From Iamia majanohamensis (GTDB lineage: Bacteria; Actinomycetota; Acidimicrobiia; Acidimicrobiales; Iamiaceae): 64,000 nucleotides of DNA. The stretch is taken from NCBI RefSeq assembly GCF_028532485.1, contig NZ_CP116942.1, forward strand, positions 2,852,001-2,916,000. Reading direction: 5' to 3'. The notes beneath the pieces were generated by a model that was not told the DNA's origin, ran no database searches, and was given only the letters and a program-made list of their open reading frames with translations. Positions 11,745-47,038 of the stretch are shown here, one piece after another; positions within the stretch are counted from its first letter, which is position 1, and each line of letters starts with the position of its first letter. The position numbers and the translations under genes were made by a program.

Positions 11745-11862
11745 CCCCTCCCGTTCTGGGGCACATCCCCGTCGCCCCCGCGCCGCCGATCGACCCCAGA
11801 ACACCTCCCCTCCCGTTCTGGGGCACATCCCCGTCGCCCCCGCGCCGCCGATCGACCCCAGA
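11745..11862. repeat. Two tandem 56-bp palindromic elements (period 62)
   Basis: Copies at 11745-11800 and 11807-11862 are virtually identical. Each carries outer arms around TTCTGGGG and CCCCAGA; in copy 1 GTTCTGGGG pairs perfectly with CCCCAGAAC. Inside is a small GGGG-CACAT-CCCC hairpin and a core GTCGCCCCCGC followed by CCGATC. It sits between two plus-strand genes and could act as a double terminator or a structured RNA. A related core with different arms lies at 34162-34268. Confidence 0.8.
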
Positions 11863-11893
11863 GCGCACCTCCGGTGTCGGTAGCGTCGGCGCC

Positions 11894-14068: not shown

Positions 14069-14121
14069 CCGTTCTCGGTACGGCAGTCCCGGATCGTCCC
14101 GGTCACGGGTACCGAGAACGG
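14069..14121. repeat. Long-stem intergenic palindrome
   Basis: CCGTTCTCGGTAC and GTACCGAGAACGG form a perfect 13-bp stem around a 27-base interior that is itself rich in CCGG/CGGG. It lies about 90 bases past the SDR stop and about 110 bases before the next gene. Terminator function is possible. Overall size and layout match the tandem palindromic elements elsewhere in the window, but here there is one copy. Confidence 0.75.
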
Positions 14122-15638: not shown

Positions 15639-15742
15639 TCCCGACGGGGCGGCGCGGGCCCGAGACACCGGCGCCGCCCCGTCGGTCCCCCGCCTGCGGG
15701 GCGGGACCGGCGCCCGGACATCGGTCGCGGGTCCGCCGCGGC

Positions 15743-27863: not shown

Positions 27864-27894
27864 ACGTCACGAGGTGCCAGGCACCTCGTGACGT
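27864..27894. terminator. Perfect 15-bp-stem bidirectional hairpin
   Basis: ACGTCACGAGGTGCC pairs completely with GGCACCTCGTGACGT across a single-base centre. It lies between the convergent SufR-like gene (ending 27849) and the minus-strand gene ending at 27910, so it can terminate both. Confidence 0.75.
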
Positions 27895-34136: not shown

Positions 34137-34161
34137 GTTGACGCCCCACCCGACCCGTACC

Positions 34162-34268
34162 GGCGCGGGATGTGGTCGCCCCCGCCACCCGATCCCGCGC
34201 CAGGACGCAGGACCGGTCGAGCTGGCGCGGGATGTGGTCGCCCCCGCGACCCGACCCCGCGCCAGGAC
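34162..34268. repeat. Two tandem palindromic elements (period 62)
   Basis: Copies at 34162-34206 and 34224-34268. Outer arms GGCGCGGGAT and ATCCCGCGCC pair perfectly in copy 1; TGGCGCGGG and CCCGCGCCA in copy 2. The interior GTGGTCGCCCCCGC is conserved, with the following bases varying (CACCCGAT versus GACCCGAC). It lies between the TetR stop and the LLM promoter. It shares the core GTCGCCCCCGC with the tandem elements at 11745-11862 although the arms differ. Confidence 0.8.
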
Positions 34269-34278
34269 GGAGGGCGGG

Positions 34279-34962
34279 TCAGCCGGTCGGGGGCTTCTGG
34301 CCCGACACGCTCCAGGAGAGGATGCGGGCCATGGCGGTGCGGAGGTCCGCCGTGCGGACGCCCCAGAACTCGAAGCCGTAGCGATGGGCCGAGACGTGCA
34401 CCAGCATCGACACGAGCACGCCTGCGGTGGCGTGGGCCTCGACGTCGTCGGGGAGCCGTCCGCTGGCCTGCATCTCCTCGATCACCTGGGCCAGGGCGTT
34501 GTTGAGGTCGTTGAGCAGGCGCGTGCGCACGTTGGCGAAGCGGCCGTCGCCCTCGTCGGTGGCCAGGTCGACGACCCGCAGCACGGAGCGGTGCTCGTCC
34601 CAGAAGTCGATGATCTCGTCGACCAGGGCCTCGGCCGCGGCGTAGCCCTTCCGGCCCCGCCACGTGCTGGCCCGGACGTGGTCGCCGAAGCGGCGGCCCT
34701 GGGCCGCCATCTCCTCGGCCAGCACCACCACCGCGCTCTCGACGTCGGCGAAGTACTGGTAGAAGGTCGCCGGGCTGGTGCCCGCCTCCCGAGCGATGTC
34801 GACCACCTTCAGCTCCCGGTACGAGCTGGTGCCGAGCATCGTCGCCGTGCAGTCGAGCAGGCGCTGGCGGGTGGCCCGCCCCCGTCGTCCAGGAGTGCGG
34901 CCGTCGGCGGCCCGCGGCTCCTCGTCGGCGACGGCCTCGTCGGGCCCCTCGTGGTCGGCCAC
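34279..34962 (-). CDS. TetR-family transcriptional regulator
   Basis: 227 residues, GTG 34962 two bases after the DoxX stop, behind GAGGCG. Helix-turn-helix about residues 30-75 (ELKVVDIAREAGTSPATFYQYFADVES). The rest is a helical ligand domain. It is the last gene of the operon that begins with the isochorismatase-like gene (37805) and carries operator site d, so it is the best candidate for the protein binding the CTGACG palindromes and repressing itself (inference). Confidence 0.88.
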   Translation of the reverse strand: MADHEGPDEAVADEEPRAADGRTPGRRGRATRQRLLDCTATMLGTSSYRELKVVDIAREAGTSPATFYQYFADVESAVVVLAEEMAAQGRRFGDHVRASTWRGRKGYAAAEALVDEIIDFWDEHRSVLRVVDLATDEGDGRFANVRTRLLNDLNNALAQVIEEMQASGRLPDDVEAHATAGVLVSMLVHVSAHRYGFEFWGVRTADLRTAMARILSWSVSGQKPPTG

Positions 34963-46855: not shown

Positions 46856-46920
46856 GGGCGGGCACCGTAGCGAGCACCTGCCGCCGGGAGGCCCACCCCT
46901 GGGTGCGGGGACGGCCCCCC

Positions 46921-47038
46921 TTCTGGTCTGTCCATGCGCCCCGAAGGGCCCGATCCCAGACCAGAAGCGCGCGGGGCCCGCGCCGCAGCCCGTTCTGGTC
47001 TGTCGATGCGCCCGCAAGGGCCTGATCCCAGACCAGAA
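46921..47038. repeat. Two tandem 46-bp palindromic elements (period 72)
   Basis: Copies at 46921-46966 and 46993-47038. Both have the 10-bp outer stem TTCTGGTCTG/CAGACCAGAA. Inside, GCCC-CGAA-GGGC (copy 1) and GCCC-GCAA-GGGC (copy 2) give an apical hairpin; GCAA is a GNRA tetraloop. They separate two minus-strand genes. Confidence 0.8.

Follow-up and report, generated by a model that had tools for sequence, protein, structure and literature searches.

Tandem palindromes at gene ends in Iamia majanohamensis: a probable REP-like superfamily of DNA repeats

REPs rank with the most frequent short repeats in bacterial genomes. The best-studied of them are linked to RAYT transposases, and direct tandem dimers are seldom seen among them. 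Described REPs are interspersed palindromes with lineage-specific stems, occur as several types per genome, and sit at gene 3' ends and in convergent gaps (PMC3733652). In convergent gaps their distance to each of the two 3' ends is mostly below 20 bp, and unidirectional ones lie near the 3' end of the upstream gene. The tagged REPs (GTAG or CGTC) have a body of 20 to 40 bp and an unpaired tag at the end. The CGTC REPs have no dedicated transposase, and direct repeats of REPs are absent, under-represented or negligible; Actinobacteria are not named in this source (PMC3733652). We found no literature on palindromic repeats of Actinobacteria or Acidimicrobiia.

Three other kinds of element resemble the repeats described below. 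BIMEs and REPINs are clusters of palindromes in extragenic space, in alternating or inverted orientation, and REPINs depend on RAYTs. MITEs are short, non-coding and bounded by terminal inverted repeats, and are marked by target-site duplications and a parent transposon with the same ends. The U-less intrinsic terminators of actinobacteria are stable GC-rich hairpins shortly after a stop codon.

Here we describe a previously undescribed set of repeats in I. majanohamensis, seen in a window of 64,000 nucleotides (the whole stretch of DNA analysed) and followed through the genome and its relatives. Like REPs, the units are interspersed palindromes of several types per genome, with lineage-specific stems, placed at gene 3' ends and in convergent gaps, and like the CGTC REPs they come without a dedicated transposase. 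They differ from tagged REPs in their length of 54 nt and in their conserved ends, which lie inside the palindrome; no terminal GTAG was seen. They also differ from REPs in general, since their arrays are direct, their spacers are fixed at 8 or 18-19 nt, the carriers belong to one order and no RAYT accompanies them. All copies of an array have the same orientation (direct head-tail repeats), unlike those of BIMEs and REPINs. Because the tested defining features fail, the units are not tagged REPs, REP-RAYT elements, BIMEs or MITEs as these are defined. They are best read as REP-like by placement and behaviour, and as set apart from described REPs by direct tandem arrays and quantised spacing. 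We consider it probable that these short DNA palindromes make up a REP-like superfamily, shared by several families within one order and spread by an enzyme other than Y1/RAYT.

Unit architecture and copy number

Each unit has two 26-nt arms and a 2-nt centre (54 bp), with conserved ends CGNNCNGG. Family A has two units in the window, at 11751..11804 and 11813..11866, both on the minus strand (the orientation of the A model). The 8-nt spacer between them, CTCCCCTC (11805..11812), shares 7 of its 8 positions with the octamer to the left of unit 1, CCCCCCTC. Family B has two units on the plus strand, one at 34155..34208 and one at 34217..34270, separated by the 8-nt spacer AGGACCGG (34209..34216). 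The second lies downstream of the minus-strand gene 34279-34962, 8 nt from its stop codon. In both pairs an imperfect palindrome of 54 nt is repeated head to tail across a gap of 8 nt; the two copies are 96% identical in A and 87% in B. Each window copy folds into a hairpin far better than its shuffles on either strand (z -3.2 to -6.1).

A preliminary description of these loci had recorded tandem palindromes of 56 bp with a period of 62, a common core and outer stems exchanged between the loci. The palindromes and the period are present in both window pairs, and each unit measures 54 nt, with 8 nt between units, rather than 56 bp. The centre (G)GTCGCC..GGCGAC(C) is indeed common to A and B; the longer match GTCGCCCCCGC is in part a coincidence, since its CCCCGC part is missing from most A and B copies elsewhere. 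What is exchanged is the middle of the arm, which is family- or lineage-specific and differs between A and B. The outermost bases are not exchanged, because the ends CGNNCYGG ... CCRGNNCG are common to both. These ends are paired or partly mismatched within the 54-nt body, and by inspection no constant tag was seen outside the palindrome across 41 arrays.

Two further palindromes lie in the window. A pair on the plus strand with a related look (46920..46967 and 46993..47038, arms CTTCTGGTCTG/CAGACCAGAAG) is probably a further family of the superfamily, family C. Family F is a single 53-nt palindrome, CCGTTCTCGGTAC..GTACCGAGAACGG, at 14069..14121, and occurs in tandem in the congener G002. Strong unrelated hairpins at 27864-27894 and 15641-15685 lie between convergent stops and are probable ordinary bidirectional terminators.

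Two covariance models, hand-built from loci matched in DNA searches of the 4.58-Mb genome, found at least 72 A and B units in that genome, all of about 54 nt. They form 41 arrays, of which 16 hold one unit, 19 hold two and 6 hold three. The copy number is thus in the tens, not the hundreds. The same genome holds a family D (L220:734/806 and L226:2753) and a family E (L228:923/985). The arrays are interspersed and extragenic, with one inside a called gene. A scan for a palindrome with the end motif gave 105 matches against 12 in the reversed sequence, over 352 kb of mostly pre-selected loci. Chance hairpins might be expected in a genome of 75% GC, which favours them, and the window has 69 perfect stems 9 bp long or longer. 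This explanation is refuted by the similarity of separate loci at the DNA level (E values down to 1e-24), by the exact 54-nt length and by the control counts.

Lineage-specific stems and covariation

The B model matched 11 of 41 genomes at E 0.01, the genome of I. majanohamensis included. Strong sets were found in G007, G009, G016, G019, G027 and G032, G036 had one good copy, and some weak matches, in G003 and G010, are chance-like. The middle of the arm follows the lineage (CTCCC in G027, CACCA in G032, GTTGG in G016, GTGGG in G009, TCCGG in G036), and the G019 version is 53 nt long with CGTAGG. The palindromes are perfect or near-perfect in G032, G027, G019 and G036. The superfamily pattern had no matches in a reversed-sequence control. 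A first, shallow look of limited sensitivity at 197 further genomes sampled from the phylum gave one marginal match to the superfamily model. For the matched relatives, MsrA neighbours point to Actinomycetota, and their finer placement is tentative. From these sequence comparisons, one 54-nt architecture appears to be common to other genera and families of one order and restricted to it, with lineage-specific, compensated stems. One G019 unit (G019:C2 ~75189, L278) is embedded in a far larger imperfect palindrome, built on either side from partial copies of the arms that recur (GAACCAGACCCCCACC ... GTCAGTTCGTCGGGG).

Covariation between the arms had been proposed from the two window loci, and it stands between families and lineages and not within family B. 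Among 15 representatives of different stems, drawn from several families and lineages, two-sided change occurs in 18 of 23 pairs (75 cells). In the same set 88.7% of cells are paired against 67.0% when shuffled, and 0 of 500 shuffles reach the covariation score, which is inflated because the representatives came from palindrome-favouring scans. Chance cannot explain the pattern, because families such as those of G027 and G032 have many copies each, with a near-perfect palindrome. Within family B, all 500 of 500 shuffles pair better than the real copies, and within family A covariation is weak. The left-arm GT and the right-arm AC of B units occur together in 1 of 37 (p 0.02), a mutual avoidance. 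Across B units, including those at 34155-34270, left-arm GATGTGG and right-arm CCACATC are almost mutually exclusive, as if the core of part of the units were flipped relative to the outer arms. Since no clear covariation is seen within a family, the inference of covariation is valid between families and not within them. Palindromy therefore looks like a trait of each family's founder and not one maintained copy by copy.

Gene ends and the DNA-level reading

Genes were called with a codon-usage gene caller. In the genome of I. majanohamensis 20 of the 41 arrays lie in convergent gaps, 16 in codirectional gaps (near the stop of the upstream gene), 4 in divergent gaps and 1 within a gene. Of 63 neighbouring gene pairs in the window only 10 are convergent, so that the arrays are enriched in convergent gaps (Fisher p 4e-4). 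The relatives have 23 convergent, 23 codirectional and 4 divergent arrays, and the distance from these to the closest stop codon is mostly 9-17 nt. Placement at gene 3' ends, with convergent gaps favoured over divergent ones, is thus of the REP type in this genome and in its relatives. Several arrays lie within 1-2 kb of another (L213, L214, L215, L216), for example 117227/118553, 1472622/1473666 and 4378623/4379871, and the genes between such neighbours would be candidate helpers.

This placement, together with very stable folding, raises the alternative that the units are bidirectional terminators or mRNA 3'-end hairpins kept for that role, with the repeats produced by duplication and gene conversion. 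They stand directly after stop codons and are often centred between convergent stops, and G002 has an unrelated perfect hairpin at an orthologous gene end where G000 has an A pair. The units differ from the U-less terminators in being sequence-related, of fixed size and phased in tandem; termination needs neither the 54-nt length nor the quantised spacing. By inspection no T-run follows the hairpin. Selection on RNA predicts an excess of G.U pairs on the sense strand, whereas on the transcribed strand of codirectional arrays A.C exceeds G.U (67 vs 41 in this genome, 38 vs 33 in relatives). Pairing is uncompensated within family B, and most other gene ends have no strong hairpins. We regard the alternative as unlikely. 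The preliminary description was fair in holding that these are not simple terminators, yet an effect of so stable a hairpin on termination or transcript ends is likely.

A structured RNA, also suggested at that stage, is unsupported. The window has no Rfam match, there is no G.U excess, the length is fixed, the tandem spacing appears to follow the DNA helix, and in convergent gaps either strand would be read. The A.C excess and the lack of a T-run and of an Rfam match argue against selection on a transcribed hairpin and for a DNA-level element. The palindromic repeat family offered beside the RNA is borne out: the covariance-model search that had been proposed recovered copies genome-wide and further matches in relatives from several families of the order.

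Array growth, mobility and the spreading enzyme

Spacing within arrays has two modes. The A and B steps are 62 (21 cases), 63 (6), 61 (3) and 72 (1). Family E has a step of 62, D of 72 and C of 73, and the 53-nt F family of G002 has a step of 71 twice. In G007 the steps are 62, 62, 62, 61, 62, 61 and 73, 73. Pooled, 37 steps measure 61-63 nt, 7 measure 71-73 nt and no step has an intermediate length; the two modes are about one helical turn apart. Spacers are 67-100% identical within arrays against 37% between arrays, and the flanks of an array resemble its own spacers above chance. Most arrays thus grew in place, by local duplication of an element plus 8 nt or, less often, 18-19 nt. Local duplication cannot account for array 3771204, whose two units keep the usual step (62 in the scan, 63 in the models) although their stem types differ. 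The rule of 8- or 18-nt spacers may reflect a cutting distance or helical phasing.

Helical phasing would be expected if the units were duplex or cruciform sites of a dedicated DNA-binding protein (nucleoid- or gyrase-type, BIME-like), a proposal that can overlap with the REP-like reading. It is favoured by the two modes recurring in several unrelated stem families, by array 3771204 with its different stems still 62-63 nt apart, and by the enrichment in convergent gaps. Full symmetry with a lineage-specific sequence is what a co-evolving homodimer would be expected to produce. Against it, there is no candidate protein, copies are absent from many relatives and from one congener, and most arrays arose by local duplication that included the spacer, so that one duplication rule may give 8 nt without any binding. 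On balance the proposal is doubtful, though it deserves some weight.

Direct signs of mobility were sought in several ways. The Y1/RAYT transposase domain (Y1_Tnp, PF01797) is absent from the genome of I. majanohamensis and from eight of nine carriers, G002 being the exception; controls were detected. Target-site duplications of 4-9 bp at 66 singletons did not rise above permutation, so there is no direct insertion signature. In G027 and G032, among the close matches listed, nearly every arm match has a partner exactly 25 nt away, and no clear case was found of an unpaired arm as the end of a longer transposon. A parent transposon bounded by the arms is thus not seen among them.

These results bear on the proposal that the units are MITEs of an ordinary DDE insertion sequence. 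In its favour are the palindromic ends, the 8-nt spacer, which is a common target-duplication length, and array 3460282, which reads T-E-T-E-T (GCACCTCA/GCACCTCA/GCACCTCG). The proposal is largely refuted by the singletons without target duplication and by the lack, among the close matches in G027 and G032, of a longer element with these ends. The exact pattern had no matches in viral contigs and the B pair had none in plasmids. We hold it to be very improbable.

Comparison with congeners gave one informative case: array 3161274 is missing beside the orthologous gene in G002, and the gap there measures just some 25 nt. The congeners have other neighbouring genes at 3158060 and 3160182, so an empty-site comparison is not clean at these two loci. 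The absence of arrays in congeners could also reflect loss. G001 and G002 also carry some 25 or more copies of another interspersed repeat, about 56-57 bp long (tandem step 56), which occurs at L216:7115-7171 (~3163114-3163170 in the genome of I. majanohamensis) and in G002:C1 at 737535-737701 and 4725573-4725732.

Under the REP-like reading, each family would have been founded by a near-perfect palindrome, and an enzyme with affinity for either the hairpin or the symmetric duplex would have copied it to new sites. The copies would then drift and persist where insertion is harmless, at gene 3' ends and in convergent gaps, and in these places they would probably serve as incidental two-way transcript ends or exonuclease barriers. 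More tentatively, a DNA-binding or hairpin-processing protein might co-evolve with the 54-bp palindromes in a RAYT-free system and hold the tandem arrays at gene ends to a helical phasing of 62/72 nt, with stems replaced wholesale between lineages. A RAYT-free superfamily with strong stem compensation between lineages and two-mode spacing offers a clean case of stem renewal and spread without a known enzyme. The same superfamily lets one ask whether a binding protein sets the spacing.
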